NCBI GenBank assembly: GCA_030068145.1
Contig: JAPJBO010000010.1
Location: 248,001-312,000, forward strand
Direction: 5' to 3'
Source: Diplonema papillatum
Taxonomy: Eukaryota; Euglenozoa; Diplonemea; Diplonemida; Diplonemidae
DNA length: 64,000 nt
Shown here piece after piece: positions 23,472-61,076 of this stretch. Every line of letters starts with the position of its first letter. Position 1 is the first letter of the stretch. The position numbers and the translations under genes were made by a program. The notes beneath the pieces are model-generated. The model had not been told where the DNA came from, ran no database searches, and was given only the letters and a program-made list of their open reading frames with translations.

Positions 23472-25293
23472 TCACATGCTGACTTCGGACGGGAAACCAG
23501 ATGTTTGGCCGCCGACCTTCTGCACGACTGAAAGCAGCGATGCGATGTGGATGTGCAGGTTCAAGCGGGGCAACGCGCAGCCTTTCCCGACGTCGGTAAA
23601 AGAAACGCGGTTGTTTCCGTCGGAAGCAACTTTGGTGAATCCAGGTCTCGGTTCGCCGTTGACGGAGTACTGCACTTTTTTAGCCTCCACATCCGCGTAG
23701 AAGGAAAGCGTGTTCCCGGAGTTCGGGTCGACGCATGAGAAGAAGGAGACGTCGATGGTCGGTACTTTGAGCTTGAATCCTTCCGTCGCGACGTTCGCTC
23801 GTGCAGCCATGGTCACGAGCTTCGCGATGATTTCATCTTTGTGCTCCGCCGGCAGCGTCACCGCCTTGCCGATGGTGGGGAACGCGAGCTTGCTCCCGCC
23901 GTCGGACAGCATTTTGTCAAAGCACGGCCGGTCTTCGCCGTTGACGGAAAACCGCATCGTCGTCTGCACCGCGAACCGCACTGCATTGCCGCTGCCCGCG
24001 TCTTTGAACTCGACGGCGTCGGAACCCGCCGCGGTGTTCCCCGCTGTTGCAGGAGCCGCCGAAGCCGCCGGCGCGGCTTCTTTTTTGCCCGGAGTCGGCG
24101 GGGCGCCGTCCGCGCTGCTGTGCGCGTCGAGCGCCGCCGCCAGCTTCGACTTCAGCACGTCTTTGCCGGCCAGCCTTTCGACGAGGGCTCCGTTCTTGTA
24201 CACGATCAGGTACGGAAGCCCGTTGACCTCACTTGCAGCGGCCATGTCCTCCAGTTCATCGACGTCAACTTTGAGGAACTGCGCCGACGGGTAGTTCGCG
24301 CTCAGCTCTTCGTAGTCGGGCATAAATTTCTGAGGGGAGTCGTTGTTGTTGGTGCTGGTTTTGAGGGATAAGGAAACATCAGAAATTTTTGCGGTGGTCT
24401 CCGCTGGCCCGGTAGTTTGTGCTACCGCCAACTTCTTTTACACTCGTTCTCTTCTCTTGTCGCTTCTGTACGTACTCTTTCACTCTTTTTCTCACTTTGG
24501 CAGCTCTTCGTAGTCGGGCATAAATTTCTGAGGGGGGGTTTTGCGTGTTTTGGTGCTTTTGGTTGTCGGCGCACGTGTAAGTTCTTCGAACGTGCCTGGA
24601 AGCGAGATCAAAGGGAAGGCGTGTTTTCCATTTTCTTCTTTTTGTGACAGACGCGCAAAGCCTTCTCTCTCTCTCTCTCTCTCTCTCCTTCGCGTCTTAT
24701 TAATCTGGTTGTTTGCCAGTAATAGTAGTATGTGTCGTCTGCCGAAGCAGCCGCAGACAGCAGGCGCAGGGGGCAGGTCTTGCTTTACTTTTCTCTTCTT
24801 CATGGAGACCCGCCCCCGGCATTCCGACTGTCCAATCACTGTCAAGAAAGTTTGCGCCTATTGTGATGAGGTGTCTGCCGTTCGACGACTGCTAATTAGT
24901 GTATACGTGGCGCTTGACAACTGCCTGCTTTATGGTAGAATGAAGTCTTCCTCGTGGAAATACTCGAGGGGCTGCCTCGTGCTTACTTCGAAGGAGGCTA
25001 GAGGGGGAGAAACAATACAACTGCAAAGTGGGTCTTTTTTGTTGAACGCTTACGACACTGAACCCAGATTCACCTGTGTTTCGTGTGGGCTAGAGCACAT
25101 TCTTCATCTTTTGCGGCCACCTCATGTATATTTTCTACAAAGCAGGTGCTTATACACAAAACAAATGGATCGGGCAAGGAAACGAACATACTTTGCACGC
25201 CCCGCACCAGGGCGCGTAGAAGTCAGCCACCGAGAGCCCCTTGCTGATGAGCTTTGCCATCTCGGCCTCAGACTGGACGTCGTGCGGCGCCAT
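23472..25293 (-). CDS. Thioredoxin fused to a duplicated uncharacterised domain (paralogue 1)
   Basis: Two exons (25293-25192 and 24329-23472) give 319 residues. Residues 1-104 form a thioredoxin fold: VADFYAPWCGACK (active site 29-34, Ala replacing the usual Pro), KFMPDYEEL, VDVDELEDMA and the cis-Pro loop GLPYLIVYKNG. An Ala/Pro/Gly linker (105-136) follows. Then come two copies of one unit. Unit A (about 139-194) reads SGNAVRF..FSVNGEDRPCFDKM.SDG..FPTIGKAVTLP. Unit B (228-288) reads SGNTLSF..YSVNGEPRPGFTKV.SDGNN..SFTDVGKGCALP. A C-terminal LHIHIASLLS..KVGG stretch ends the protein. I do not recognise the unit; a beta-rich lipid- or protein-binding fold is only a guess. The single phase-0 intron splits the active-site CK from KFMP, exactly as in the paralogue at 27.6-29.5 kb. 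Confidence 0.85.
24303..24535 (-). mobile_element. R3 intronic element, copy 1, with 35-bp direct duplications
   Basis: Identical 35-bp sequences at 24303-24337 and 24501-24535 each contain the 3' splice site (CCCCTCAG on the gene strand) plus the first 27 nt of exon 2. The 163 bp between them match 37396-37532 in the TFIIIC-like gene, sharing CCAGCGGAG.CCACCGCAAAA, TTATCCCTCAAA and CAGCACCA on the gene strand. Using the distal acceptor would read KFMPDYEELPK and then a stop. Confidence 0.8.
24664..24688. repeat. CT microsatellite
   Basis: About 12 CT dinucleotides in the Trx-fusion 1 intron. Confidence 0.9.
24955..25160 (+). repeat. R1 repeat, copy 6 (intronic)
   Basis: It is full length but internally altered near CATCTTTTGCGGCC. 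It lies about 30 bp inside the 5' end of the intron and is antisense to the gene. Confidence 0.85.
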
Positions 25294-27562: not shown

Positions 27563-29514
27563 TTACGCTTTGACTGTTGACGGGAACCCGGATGCCTTGC
27601 CGCCCACCTTCTTGACGAGGGACAGCAACGACGCGATGTGAACATGAAGGTTGACCTCGGGCAACGTGCATCCTTTTTGGACGTCCACGAAGCTGACACG
27701 GTTGTACCCGTCAGATTGCACGGTCGCGAAGCTGGGCCCATATTTGCCGTTGACCTGGTACCGAATTTTCTCCGCATCCATGTCGGCACTGAAGGCGAGA
27801 GTGTTGCCGGATTCCGGGTCGACGAATGAGAAGTAGCTGACGTCGACATCGGGAATCGCGACATTGAAGCCGTCGGTGCGGACGTTCGCTTTGCGGGCGA
27901 GCGTGATGAGCTTCGCGTTGATGGCTTGAGCCTCGGCAGGGGGAAGCGTCACTGCTTTCCCGATGGTCGGGAACGCCAGCTTCGAAGCGCCGTCGGAGAT
28001 CATCTTGTCGAAGGGCGGCCTGTCTTCGCCGTTGACCGCGAACTGCATGGTGGTCTGCACCTTCATCCTGACGGTGTTGCCGCTGCTCGGATCCACGAAC
28101 TGCACGAAATCGTCGCCGAACACGGGTTGCGCGGCTTCCGCGCTCGCGGCGCCGCCGGGTGCGGCTCCGCTCGCGAGCTTGGCGAGCTGTTCGTCCAAGC
28201 TCTTCTTCGTGACGTCCCTGCCCCCGAGCCGGGCTGTGGGTTGCCCGTGCTGGAAGAACACCAGGTGCGGCAAGCCGCTGACTTCGTACTTGGCGGCCAG
28301 GTCTTCGAACTCGTCGACGTCGACCTTCAAGAACTGAACGTCCGCATGCTCGGCAGAAGCCGCTTCAAAGTCGGGCATGAACTTCTGTGGTTTCGTGGAC
28401 GAGGCGGTTTCGTGCCTTCGATACCCTTCGGATGGTCAGAACCACCGCTGCTATTGCTAGCGTTGGTTCTTTTCCCGGTCGGGAGGTGTATCCACCTCGA
28501 CCCCGCGGTTTTAAGGCCACGGAGTTGAATCGAGTTGGATTCTTCGGACATGTATAAGCAATGGAGTTACCATTGTTATCCAACTGGGCCCAAAGGGCGT
28601 AGATTGCCACGGATTTAATGAGCCGCCTGCAGACCCACTGTTAATCTATTTACCATGGCTTAATCCTTGAAACAAGCACATGACTACTGGCAGGATCAAC
28701 CAGGTTTCTTGGCACTCAAACCAGACTGGACCGAGGATAACCTGACGAATCAGAGATTCCCCGATACCAGAGATTGTATCGTGTCAAGCCTAGATTGATG
28801 CATGATCATTATTTTCTTTCTTCAGCTTTCAAAGGGGCAGTCCTCGATCGTATCTACGACCGATAGCTTTCCTCGATTGCCTTTTTTGTATTTTACCATC
28901 GTGTCTTCCCGATTACCTTGACCATTCGATCGAGCGTACGAGTCATTGAAACCCCTATTCAAACTCTTTTTGTGTGGACTAAACAAGTGATTCGCATGTC
29001 ATCTGCTACGAAGCAAGACCTACCTCGGCTGGGGGATAACCATCGCAGCAGTTCGTGTGCGTCAAACTGCCAGACTTGACTAAGTATTGAGTCTTGCGTG
29101 ACCCGTTTGTTACGAGGGTGCACATGGTATGCAACGTGTGATCATGCGTAGATACATTTTGAGCCCATGTGATCATATGTTCTCGTCCGAGCTTGCAAGT
29201 ATAAAAAACAATCCAGAACGGCCAACCAAACACACTGAGTTGGAGCCCAAGTCCAAGTTGGGTGTCACTGAACTCTGCGAGGAGTTCTCCTGGTATGCGG
29301 GGCTGAGTGTGCTGTCTTGTGGCTTGTCTACGGTCGGCAATCACGACCACGCGTTCTAAGGTTTCGAATATTTCATCGGCGATGCTCTCTATACAACCAA
29401 ATGACGCAATACCTTGCAAGCCCCGCACCATGGAGCGTAGAAGTCCGCAACGGTGACGGAGCGATCCACGCACTGCTTGAAGTCGCTCTCCGAGGCGATT
29501 GGGTGGGGCGCCAT
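27563..29514 (-). CDS. Thioredoxin fused to a duplicated uncharacterised domain (paralogue 2)
   Basis: Two exons (29514-29413 and 28384-27563) give 307 residues. The design equals that of the neighbour at 23.5-25.3 kb. The thioredoxin part has VADFYAPWCGACK, KFMPDFEA, KVDVDEFEDLA and GLPHLVFFQHG. A shorter linker follows. Two SGN..F..VNG..P.F..SDG..F..LP units come next: SGNTVRM..FAVNGEDRPPFDKM, and SGNTLAF..YQVNGKYGPSFATV..YNRVSFVDVQKGCTLP. The end is again LHVHIASLLSLVKKVGG. Relative to paralogue 1 the linker is shorter and unit B has lost the RP pair after VNG. The intron position and phase are conserved, so the pair arose by tandem duplication of an already spliced gene. Function is unknown beyond the redox fold. 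Confidence 0.85.
28385..29412 (-). other. Trx-fusion 2 intron (1028 bp) containing SSU rRNA sequence
   Basis: The boundaries are AAG|GTATTG and CACAG|AAG, phase 0. The acceptor-proximal third is derived from the 5' end of an 18S rRNA gene, in the sense orientation relative to the intron. No R1 or R3 copy is present, unlike the paralogous intron. Confidence 0.85.
28390..28707 (-). pseudogene. 5' fragment of 18S (SSU) rRNA inside an intron
   Basis: On the minus strand it begins AACCTGGTTGATCCTGCCAG, then TAGTCATGTGCTTGTTTCAA, GGATTAAGCCATG, GGCTCATTAAATC, TTGGATAACAATGGTAA and GCTTATACATG. These are the first conserved blocks of SSU rRNA in the correct order. The match is secure to about 28545. 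It may continue to about 28400 through AAAAGAACCAACGC and GGTATCGAAGGCACG, which resemble the next SSU segments. It stops there, so it cannot be a functional rRNA alone. Confidence 0.85.
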
Positions 29515-30964: not shown

Positions 30965-31122
30965 CTAGGCTGCACGCGCACTACACTGACGCATTAAACG
31001 AGTTTGAGAGCCTTCCGGCTACCCATCTTGAAGAGGATGGGAAATCTTTTGAACTTGCGTCGTGATGAGGATCGATGATTGCAATTATTCCCCTTGAATG
31101 AGGAATGCCTAGGAGGCGCAAG
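30965..31122 (-). repeat. R7 repeat (inverted copy of 2424-2580)
   Basis: It reads GCACGCGCACTAC, GACGCATTAAACGAGTTTGA, GAGCCTTCCGGCTACC and GATGAGGATCGATGA, the reverse complement of 2424-2580. A short third piece lies at 54606-54655. Confidence 0.75.
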
Positions 31123-34600: not shown

Positions 34601-37600
34601 GAGTTCTTCTGCACAGCCGCGGATACAAACGCAGCCGTCCTCACCAGCTTCCCTCCTGCCAGACACAACAGACAATGACAGCGTCGAGGACACCGCCATC
34701 CACCCAACCTTTGTGTCCCCTGCCGACTTAGTGATGTATTGCGTGTGGGGCCTGCCCACCAGATCAACCACCGCATGTTCGTCAGCGATCTTCGACGAGT
34801 AAGCCCAACTTGACACCAGGTGAACACGTACAACAGAAACACGAAAATCATACCCAGTTGGAGAGAAAGCGAGGCTATGAGGCGTGGCAGGCAGAGTGTT
34901 CGCTACCTCGATGCTGGACAGCTGCGGTGGCTTCCTCACGCCGGCTCCATCAACAGAGCAACCTAGGTTGGCCAGCACTTCACCACCGAAGGGGTACAGG
35001 AGGATTTTGCCGTCATGAGCACAGGTGGCTATCCAGTGCGCTGTGGCCGCAATACCTGTGTCAGATTATTTATGAACCTTCAGCGAGAGCACAAAAGTTC
35101 GTATGGCGCTTTCTTTTCTGTGCTCACCTGCTTTGGTGAGTTTCATGTAGTACGCTGTCAACTACTAATTTATAGTGCCAACAACGCATTGTTAACACAA
35201 TAAACACGCTGTATGTCTATGCCACTATGGTATCCTTTTTCTTCTCTGGGATAGTGGCGCCGCAGAGCATCGCTATGGCTTTCTTTTCCACGGGCTTGAG
35301 CTTGGCGTATAGATCCTCAACACCGGATGCTTGCAGAACTCTGCAGAGGTTTCTGATCACCTCCAACTCCTCCTTGTTTTTTCCCGGGATATCGGCGGGG
35401 AGATAACCGCACTCGTGGAAAAGTAATAATCGTCTTAGATCCCAAGCTCGACTTTAAAAAGAAATACTTGGCGTAGCTGCTTTGACTCCGAATAGAAGGG
35501 AGGGAATATAGAGGTAGAGGGCAGAATACAATACAAACACAATCTGATTTGTTCTTCGCTTACACCACCGTGTGTTGTTTTGTCGCTCAGGACTTTGACC
35601 TGTTGTGTTAGTGTGATTTGTCGTGTTGGGGTAGACCCGCATGACCTCACGTCCGTTCGACACGTGGTTCGGTAGTTACAGCACTCGGGATCCCTTCGGT
35701 TCTTTGTCTGGCAGCTATTGTCGAGCATTTCCCTCCAAGCTGGCGCTTATGTAAAAGAAAATCGTCGAATACACACCGGTGATGGGTTTCGTGTGGTTTG
35801 TACGCGTTCGAACGGGGTCCAGCAGCGCACCTTCCTCGTCGACGACGAAGAGGACCAGGTCCAGGTCGTACGGCACCACGACGTGCAGTTTGTCGTTGAG
35901 GGAGAGCGCTTGGATCTTGAGGCAGCTCACGGGGGCCATGCGGGGCGGCTCCAGGTTGAGAGAATGGTCAAGCGTCGCCTCGGGCTGCGTGTCGTCGTCG
36001 GATTCGCGAACCGTGCACGACCAGATTTCGACCCGCCCCCGGCCTCTAAGGACGACCAGGTTGTCCCACAGGATGCCGACCTCCGTCGCCACCCAGTCCA
36101 TTGCGACAACCGCGTCGCCGCGCGGCTTCCGGTGGTCGGTGCTGGGCACATGCCCCGGCGGGGTGATCGTGGTGAGCCGGGCGACGCGCTTCGGGCCGTT
36201 GTCGGACACGGGCACGTTCCGGACGAGCCAGATCGATATCGATCCGGCGAGCGTGCCGGTCGCGAGGAGCGTTTGGATCTTCGGGTCGTCGGCGACCCTG
36301 TCCTTCGCGGGCAGCGGGATGGTGAGGGGCCGCCAGCTCACGGCGGTGGCGTGCCCGCTGACCCGCAGAAACGTGGGCTTCGCTTCCAGCAGGATCGAGC
36401 GCGACTTCCGCTGCACGAGCAGCAGCCCCGCCTTCCCGCTTACCGTAACAAGCGCCAGCGGGGTCACCTCGAGGCCTTCTTGGATGCCGATCACTGGGCC
36501 CCAGGACACCTCCTTCACATGCTCTCGAAAGCCGTTGCTGTAGATGGACCTGCGGGGCACGTGTTTTAGCGTTTATTATGGTTTAAACGATGTACGGTGT
36601 TTTAGGGTCACCGCTTGACCACTGGCGATGGGAGTCGGGTAGTGAACATAATCATTATTATGTTCACTACATCATTAAATCTAGACATATTTGGGCTTCA
36701 TTGCATCCACGTTAACCATGGCTACCCAAGCTTGTGCCTATAATGCGACGGACACCAAGCAACAAATCCGCTGTGAACTCGGATCTCTCATCCATTCGCT
36801 GGATTGTGTGGTATTTCAATCCGATGCGAAGTAAGCATGCGACTACGACGACTAGCGTCACCCAGGCTTCCTGTCGCTCAAACCAGGCTAAAGCGCGCGC
36901 TGCATGCCGCCTCATAATGCGGGTTGAGCCAGCGCAAGCAGAAACGGCTTGGCATGCTGTGTTCAACATCACGCCGTGTCCTTTCTGCGTCGTGTTCCGG
37001 TCCTTCACACGGACACATAGCGGAACCTGAGCGTCCGCAGACACGACAGCAATGTATGCCTGGTATATCGGGCGGCCAATCGTTATTCATAGCTTGCGAG
37101 TCTGGGGGAAAAACTTAGTTTAAAGTTTAGGCAGACACTGCCTCTCATGCATGTTTGATGCTAGTATCAAGTCTTCGTCGAAGAAAGTGTAAAATAAAAT
37201 AGGGGAAAGGGAAAAGGTTCGCAGGGAGTTTCAGACTCCGCAGGTAGGGTAAGAAACCTTGAGCGACTAGTCCTCTTTATTATCCTGTTCCGGTGCTATC
37301 ACAACTTTCTGGTTCCGATGTATATCGCATCCTTCGTTCATCAAATTAAAAAAAAGGGTGGTTCTGGTTTGGGTTGTGGCTCGTAACCGAAGTAGGGGGG
37401 GTCGTTGTTAATGGTGCTGGGTTTGAGGGATAAGGAAAAAGGTCAGAAATCTTTTTGCGGTGGCCTCCGCTGGTCTGGTAAGTCTGTGCTACCTCCGTTC
37501 TTCTACACTCGTACTTTTCTCTACTCACTGCTGTAACTGAAATAGGGAGGGGAGGCGGCATACTTCGAGAGGTTGTCTGTGGGAGTGGCGCGCTCGCGGC

Positions 37601-48802: not shown

Positions 48803-48921
48803 GGATACGACCATACTCTGGTGAAAGCACCCCATCCCGCCTGATTTGGGAAGTTAAGCACCAGCAGGCCTGACTAGTACTGCGGTGAGTGATCACGTGG
48901 GAACCCCAGGTGTTGTATTCT
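48803..48921 (+). rRNA. 5S ribosomal RNA
   Basis: About 118 nt, starting GGATACGACCATACTCTGGT and ending GGTGTTGTATTC, which pairs with the start. It contains GAAGTTAAGC and AGTACTG.GGTGAGTGATCAC, the internal control region used by TFIIIA. TCTTTT follows as a Pol III terminator. All stems look intact, so I take it as functional. It is the only plus-strand gene recognised, and a single copy rather than a tandem array. I see no spliced-leader RNA gene beside it. Confidence 0.93.
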
Positions 48922-60699: not shown

Positions 60700-61076
60700 T
60701 GGGCTCCTCTGTGGACGATCGAGTTCTTCAAGGCGGTAAGTCCGCTCCGCTTTCCTGTGACGCCGTCAAGGTCTACGGGTTGTGAGCATTCGACATCGGC
60801 AAGCCAACGAGTGCCCGCACCGTGTTGACACCGGAAGGAAGTTGCCGTTCGCCGAAGCTAGTCGGCCCGATAAATCCGAGTGTGCCCTGAGTAACTCACG
60901 CATTCCTCTTGACTGGGTTCTGGCTTAGAGGCGTTCAGCCATAATCCATCCAGTGGTAGCATCACGGCACTGTTCGATCAAACAACCGTGATACCAGGGA
61001 CTAGAAACGAGAGTTCCGCTCGTACTACCCCGTATTGCTGTCGGAATGTCAGTAGGGTAAAACCAACCTGTCTACG
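60700..61076 (-). pseudogene. 3' fragment of LSU (28S) rRNA
   Basis: On the minus strand from 61076 it reads AGACAGGTTGGTTTTACCCT, CAATACGGGGTAGTACGAG, TCTAGTCCCTGGTATCACGG, TTGTTTGATCGAACAGTGCC, CTACCACTGGATGGATTATG and GCTGAACGCCTCTAAG. These are the conserved blocks after the sarcin-ricin region in the right order. It is secure from 61076 to about 60895 and likely to about 60700. Upstream LSU sequence is absent beyond AGACAGG. It is a broken rRNA copy unless LSU is naturally split here. Confidence 0.85.

Follow-up and report, generated by a model that had tools for sequence, protein, structure and literature searches.

A two-exon thioredoxin gene on the minus strand of the window (the whole stretch of 64,000 nucleotides of Diplonema papillatum DNA analysed here) carries the 3′ splice site of its intron twice, each time with the beginning of the following exon, and a repeat termed R3 lies between the two copies. 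This raises the question of how the acceptor came to be duplicated around a repeat, and whether the event created an intron, lengthened an existing one or cut the protein short.

The duplicated acceptor and the age of the intron

The gene, the duplicated stretch, the candidate splicing signals and a tandem paralog are placed as follows in the window:

25192..25293, minus strand: first exon of the thioredoxin-PITH-like gene; its 34 codons end in WCGACK, phase 0, with gt at 25191
24330..25191, minus strand: intron 1 with the downstream acceptor, 862 nt (664 nt with the upstream acceptor)
24577..24581, minus strand: CTTAC, branch-point-like (yUnAy), upstream of the upstream 35-bp copy
24501..24535, minus strand: upstream (proximal) 35-bp copy, with CCCCTCAG at 24535-24528 and nine exon 2 codons, then an in-frame TGA
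24338..24500, minus strand: R3, a 163-bp putative 5′-truncated 3′ tail of a retroelement family
24378..24382, minus strand: CTGAT, branch-point-like, within R3 (CTTAT at 24372-24368 is another)
24355..24358, minus strand: CCAG, third candidate acceptor, inside R3 and part of the family's tail pattern
24303..24337, minus strand: downstream (distal) 35-bp copy, with the acceptor CCCCTCAG at 24337-24330 and the first nine codons of exon 2
23472..24329, minus strand: exon 2 counted from the downstream acceptor, its reading frame open until its stop
27563..29514, minus strand: tandem thioredoxin paralog, exon 1 at 29514-29413 (34 codons) and exon 2 at 28384-27563

Sequence comparison established that the stretches 24303-24337 and 24501-24535, which lie 163 bp apart, form a perfect repeat of exactly 35 bp; no further base matches on either side. 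Both copies, read on the minus strand, consist of CCCCTCAG followed by AAA TTT ATG CCC GAC TAC GAA GAG CTG, and the frame past the upstream copy runs CCA AAG TGA; the first-pass annotation, which had described two identical stretches with a splice site and nine codons and a reading of KFMPDYEELPK then stop, was thus correct on both points. An exact repeat of 35 bases in 64 kb is far beyond chance, by reasoning rather than by simulation. When exon 1 is joined to the downstream copy, the product contains a gapless Thioredoxin domain (PF00085, 78.7 bits, profile 13-101 of 103), the only Pfam call on the gene product, and we take its C-terminus to be PITH-like. A DNA search of the assembly (271 Mb, 2910 contigs) with exon 2 gave four matches, namely the gene itself, the paralog (69%), the upstream 35-mer and a 135-bp piece (95%), and an insert-free allele was absent from the assembly. 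The 135-bp piece lies apart from the gene (C462:173147-173280) and corresponds to query bases 70-204 of exon 2.

The paralog, located ~3 kb away and encoding a full thioredoxin domain, has an intron at the same codon and in the same phase as the R3-bearing gene (..GCTTGCAAG before gt, and ccacag before AAGTTCATGCCCGAC), and R3 was not found at its acceptor. Because the paralog shares this intron and lacks R3, the sequences indicate that the intron predates the R3 insert; in addition, ~660 nt of intron 1 lie upstream of the 35-bp duplication. The paralog's intron at the same codon therefore leads us to read the event as probably the lengthening of an existing intron rather than an introner-type gain, the downstream acceptor being presumed to be used.

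Other repeated sequences were noted in these introns and elsewhere in the window. Intron 1 of the R3-bearing gene also carries a repeat at 24715-24850 (minus strand) that ends in TACTACTATTACTGGC, and a relative of this repeat in locus L012 abuts R3 directly at GGCTAG. Intron 1 of the paralog holds a piece of rDNA at 28420-28705 (minus strand; spacer plus 18S 5′ end) that is 87% identical to rDNA copies (query bases 1-263), and scattered rRNA pieces are found at 60901-61048 (minus strand, 28S), 30985-31099 (plus strand, 18S) and 48803-48921 (plus strand, a full-length 5S match). The 3′ half of the spliced leader, which we assume to be typical of diplonemids and kinetoplastids, occurs exactly 625 times in the assembly (control 0), none of them in the window.

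Choice of acceptor and similar insertions at other genes

Seven YAGs occur from 24620 to 24303. The upstream copy has retained CCCCCCCTCAG, with CTTAC ~50 nt before it, and the downstream copy presents CCCCTCAG after R3, in competition with the CCAG inside R3, which is located 25 nt upstream of the downstream AG and whose use would shift the frame. These sequence cues, i.e., the better tract and the branch-point match, favour the upstream copy, as ordinary scanning rules would. It is thus a serious possibility, if one short of probable, that the upstream acceptor is mainly used, that the gene yields the truncated thioredoxin (KFMPDYEELPK-stop) or a mixture, and that it leans on its tandem paralog. 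Such an outcome agrees with the position of the upstream acceptor, which comes first and keeps the original pyrimidine tract CCCCCCCT besides its branch-point-like CTTAC, with the full-domain paralog close by, and with the reported haploidy of D. papillatum, hence no second allele (PMC10161547). However, exon 2 is still open to its stop although R3 is ~3% off the majority of its kin, and two further loci argue the other way: in L011 a conserved exon stands behind the downstream acceptor, and the upstream match of L067 seems, by eye, to have decayed.

L011 is the clearest parallel to the thioredoxin gene. A CDK-like exon (PF00069, profile 23-92) directly follows CCCCACCTACAG and the next exon corresponds to profile 93-232; the 13-bp duplication includes the acceptor, and this one CDK acceptor is preceded by three successive R3-like stretches (L011:2031-2555), as if each insertion had renewed the target. 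That the kinase exons behind the downstream acceptor are intact suggests that a downstream copy is usable. Duplications of 22 and 23 bp with CAG and an exon-like start occur in L070 and L076, respectively, and no Pfam match was found for these exon-like starts. In L012, a TFIIS zinc-ribbon exon (PF01096, 44.9 bits) comes after ccaccccacag, right after R3, and a target-site duplication was not found at this locus. L067 is a weaker case. Its ABC1-kinase exon (24.0 bits, against a cut-off of 22.9) comes after CCTCACAG, and the sequence upstream of the element (ccaccaag gctgc ggagatct) gives a gapped and altered match by eye that neither anchored scan (see below) called (score 2 in the scan located by the 5′ end); if this is the other copy, two exon bases and the YAG have been lost. 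Taken together, these sequences indicate that relatives of R3 have acted likewise in other genes, as best seen in L011. By analogy with L011, it is likely that the duplicated acceptor of the thioredoxin gene allows R3 to be spliced out together with the intron, leaving the protein unchanged.

The R3 family, its long relatives and its targets

R3 belongs to a family present at about a thousand places and is not a two-copy repeat: in a pattern search of the assembly, its 31-base 3′ end occurred at 1075 places with at most 3 mismatches, versus 0 for the reversed control. The window holds a second member:

37401..37535, minus strand: second, more diverged R3 relative, 82% identical over 137 columns, bordered by a weak repeat of 15 bp whose upstream copy contains CAG and whose downstream copy contains CGG

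When compared to the majority of 23 other copies that are at least 90% identical, R3 departs by 5 substitutions, a 2-nt gap and a single additional base (~3% different). Copies found by BLAST with the whole of R3 have about a common right end (..CACCAAYAACAACGAC, T or C, then C's) and variable left ends, and unrelated sequence lies beyond the right end of the dispersed copies. The Rfam scan of the window gave no match at R3, and the pattern of the exact window junction at up to 2 mismatches was uninformative (8 matches versus 5 in the reversed control). R3 sequence is also found in tandem arrays, with periods of ~168 bp in L016 (contig C74), ~407 bp in L048 (C80) and ~83 bp at C207:246411-246854, the last consisting of six units that each end in CCCCCCACTTACAG.

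Longer relatives were sought from 19 loci fetched with their flanks around a 104-base upstream part of the family. Fifteen of them (the reference L033 plus 14 more) align over 336-1151 columns at 97.6-99.6% identity and share the right end, except L039, whose alignment stops ~50 bases short; their starts are staggered (L034 positions 1435, 2709, 3261, 3279, 3802, 3839, 4182 and others), and L034 and L035 match through 5.3 kb. L034 contains a long reading frame:

L034:178-4632, plus strand: putative long retroelement ORF with N-terminal GIY-YIG, reverse transcriptase (RT)-like motifs and C-terminal ubiquitin-specific protease; near-identical copies exist

This ORF of 1485 codons starts at the sole in-frame ATG after the last stop, and it contains a GIY-YIG domain (PF01541, 25.5 bits, cut-off 22.6) and a ubiquitin-specific protease domain (PF00443 UCH, 84.8 bits); the N-terminal position of the nuclease is presumably the Chlamys/Naiad layout. 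RT-like motifs were recognised by eye (LYGTLKLHK, DFTTMYDQL, LGIPMGANASPDIANL and RFIDDLLC), the part that holds them being not significant by profile (RVT_1 12.2 bits, E 0.15; group II RT E 0.076 on the same stretch). No match to it was found among PDB sequences, its structure prediction had a mean pLDDT of 34, and no relatives were confirmed in the viral contigs scanned. At the DNA level, the 40 scored matches to the RT region (out of 133 candidates) comprise 37 listed at 100% and 3 at 99%, and copies so nearly identical indicate that the long element has been active recently.

Penelope-like traits in this family are the GIY-YIG domain in the ORF and 5′ truncation together with target-site duplication; head-to-tail neighbours occur in L034, L041, L017 and L011, with no pseudo-LTR delimited. 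The hammerhead ribozyme motif, common though not universal in Penelope-like elements, was absent among the 14 Rfam matches (E up to 1) in L034, L010, L022 and L012. We infer from the domain and motif content that the long element is Penelope-like, its RT being assigned by motifs and weak matches. In six copies (L009, L010, L022, L023, L028 and L029), the R3-type tail aligns with the 3′ end of the long element over 257-336 columns at 82-89% identity. Because no R3-type copy with a long ORF was present among those fetched, R3 perhaps forms a separate non-autonomous family and may be either a sister family or a non-autonomous rider of the long element. The same missing ORF, as well as the many LINE-type gene models said to exist in D. 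papillatum (PMC10161547), would also fit an independent SINE moved by an ordinary LINE with no descent from the GIY-YIG element; we nevertheless regard this as unlikely, given the 82-89% identity of the tails and the C-run sites at which both R3 and the GIY-YIG element are found.

Target-site duplications were scored in 97 copies, i.e., loci L009-L108 plus the window with the tail at no more than 4 substitutions, in which the arrays L016 and L048 were excluded, right-flank duplicates were merged and a copy needed at least 400 bases ahead of the junction and 100 behind it to be kept. Eight of the 100 loci have no row (L016, L018, L035, L040, L044, L048, L056 and L060), and the set is non-random, since it combines the top-ranking BLAST and pattern matches with the long relatives. 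In the scan located by the 5′ end, 42 of 91 copies (the 97 minus 6 without a usable 5′ end) scored at least 8, versus 3.5% of mismatched pairs; this count is low, since the 5′ ends of L066, L076 and L067 were misplaced (score 1-2) despite matches by other scans or by eye, and ~3 of the 42 are expected by chance. The scan anchored on C-runs gave a score of at least 7 for 23/97 copies versus 0.6% of mismatched pairs, the C's of the right copy being partly built into the copy-selecting pattern and the C-run of the left copy being independent of it. Both anchored scans supersede an earlier unanchored one (23/97 above a threshold of 12), the null of which was inflated by nested neighbours (99% point 57). 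The other 49 of the 91 copies had no flanking duplication at the score used, and are thus of the kind that the first-pass annotation had named as counting against its reading; decay, nested neighbours and duplications of C's only may account for them.

Duplication lengths in the 42 copies range from 8 to 54 bp (median 14), and the 35 bp of the window ties with L081 for second place behind L042 (54 bp); L066, called by other scans only, has ~59-86 bp with mismatches. The 35-bp duplication is therefore long yet within the family range. The first-pass annotation had called it far longer than those described, which holds against characterised introners (3-9 bp, PMC9860276) and fails within the R3 family. 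Duplications of the same kind flank the long-element copies L032, L033, L036 and L047. In sum, the family of tails and the C-run duplications in many copies uphold the earlier view of R3 as a mobile element and of the 35 bp as its target-site duplication. That a 198-bp unit was instead duplicated locally, in tandem or by slippage, with R3 present beforehand, would find a parallel in the arrays on C74 and C80, but is very improbable and was rejected: the right end of R3 is placed as in the dispersed copies, which adjoin unrelated sequence, and the duplications of other copies likewise begin at this junction.

Concerning the targets, a strict acceptor test (a YAG within 45 nt and coding-like sequence) was passed by 9/97 right flanks versus 20/432 C-runs of the window (Fisher p 0.08), and a strong preference for splice acceptors is thus weakly supported. 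CAG occurred at most 17 bases after CCCC in 32/97 copies versus 96/433 window C-runs (p 0.035, uncorrected for the eight triplets tried), and the seven other triplets showed no difference between copies and window C-runs. Genome-wide, for the 398 exact tails, CAG was matched within 14 in 138 instances and GAC in 55, these being matches rather than copies, with arrays included. The R3 family seeks C-runs, and acceptors are struck at least partly as C-runs; an extra preference for acceptors over other C-runs is possible but weak. An introner-type gain in which the element created the intron, a likeness drawn by the first-pass annotation from a repeated intronic element whose flanking duplication provides a splice site, is ruled out for practical purposes by the intron shared with the R3-free paralog, the ~660 nt of intron upstream of the duplication, the few copies passing the strict test and a C-run duplication resembling target-primed reverse transcription.

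Proposed mechanism, known systems and significance

Altogether, the explanation that we consider best, and hold with good confidence, is that a retroelement tail was inserted at an existing acceptor with a 35-bp duplication, and that the intron was thereby lengthened. R3 would be the 5′-truncated 3′ tail of a Penelope-like retroelement family, or a member of a non-autonomous family using its machinery. In target-primed reverse transcription, one strand would have been nicked within the C-run at the acceptor of the pre-existing intron, the exposed ..GGGG-3′ end would have served as primer on the element RNA, whose 3′ end terminates in C, and an early stop of synthesis would have caused the 5′ truncation. 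A nick of the other strand 35 bp downstream, inside exon 2, would then have produced the 35-bp duplication holding the acceptor and nine codons, as the distance from nick to nick would set the duplication length. The earlier statement that R3 entered exon 2 consequently fits the second nick, which would lie in the exon, and not the first, which would lie in the pyrimidine tract. Two acceptor copies would result, and with the downstream one used, the whole insert would be spliced out and the protein unchanged. The nick order, the priming, the Penelope-like filing and the use of the downstream acceptor are the steps that we infer.

A comparable case is the merle SINE in dog PMEL: it sits at an intron-exon boundary, its 15-bp target-site duplication lies at the original acceptor, and the original or a cryptic acceptor is used according to tail length (PMC7349775). 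The two share a retroposed insert with acceptor duplication, the splicing outcome in merle being a competition between acceptors, but merle lies in inverse orientation with poly(T) at a single locus (PMC7349775), whereas R3 lies in sense at a C-run target and its family in several genes of one genome. Introners are likewise repeated elements spliced out of genes, and some families recruit a splice site from the target duplication; however, they make new introns, with 3-9 bp duplications in earlier DNA-type ones (PMC9860276, PMC7789003), whereas here a retroelement probably lengthens an existing intron. Introner copies each make up an intron; in the window, R3 is one part of a longer one. As for GIY-YIG Penelope-like elements, GIY-YIG and RT in one ORF (RT by motifs in our case), 5′ truncation, partial tandems and some target-site duplications are common to both, and our element differs by its N-terminal nuclease, C-terminal ubiquitin-specific protease, C-run targets and duplications of 8-54 bp versus 8 and 10 bp in rotifer Penelope-like elements (PMC3846280, PMC11167929).

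In D. papillatum, transposable elements within introns and ~3600 scattered 28S rRNA pieces have been described (PMC10161547), and MITE-like transposons have been considered a possible origin of non-canonical introns in other diplonemids (PMC10161547, PMC12621601). The main text of PMC10161547 does not contain the word 'Penelope', and acceptor duplication by a retroelement was not met in the portions of the diplonemid repeat and intron literature covered (PMC10161547, PMC12621601). Literature on diplonemids and Penelope gave nothing related, judged by title, and a ubiquitin-specific protease domain appeared in none among the matches listed from the retrotransposon and GIY-YIG literature. Insertions that duplicate an acceptor are known as isolated cases, merle among them; in the portions of the literature surveyed, they were not met as a recurrent habit of a Penelope-like family.

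Such a habit is what we tentatively put forward, as a conjecture that could well prove wrong: a Penelope-like retroelement with an added deubiquitinase may prefer C-runs, which in this genome frequently serve as the pyrimidine tract of an acceptor, each insertion duplicating the acceptor and regenerating the C-run, so that introns would grow stepwise, through repeated insertion at one acceptor, with the protein intact. The long element is of interest in itself, since a single ORF combines GIY-YIG, RT-like motifs and a ubiquitin-specific protease, and its near-identical copies are numerous. Intron lengthening without harm is usually argued from averages, and the R3 family offers single events, represented here by two identical acceptors that enclose the insert, a paralog lacking it, and L011 with its series of three inserts; RNA data on the family would directly reveal how the spliceosome chooses between identical acceptors. 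If the proposal is true, intron lengthening would be self-tolerated and the competing acceptors would be raw material for alternative splicing; the same RNA data would also show how a C-run-seeking retroelement manages to persist in a protist reported to be haploid (PMC10161547).
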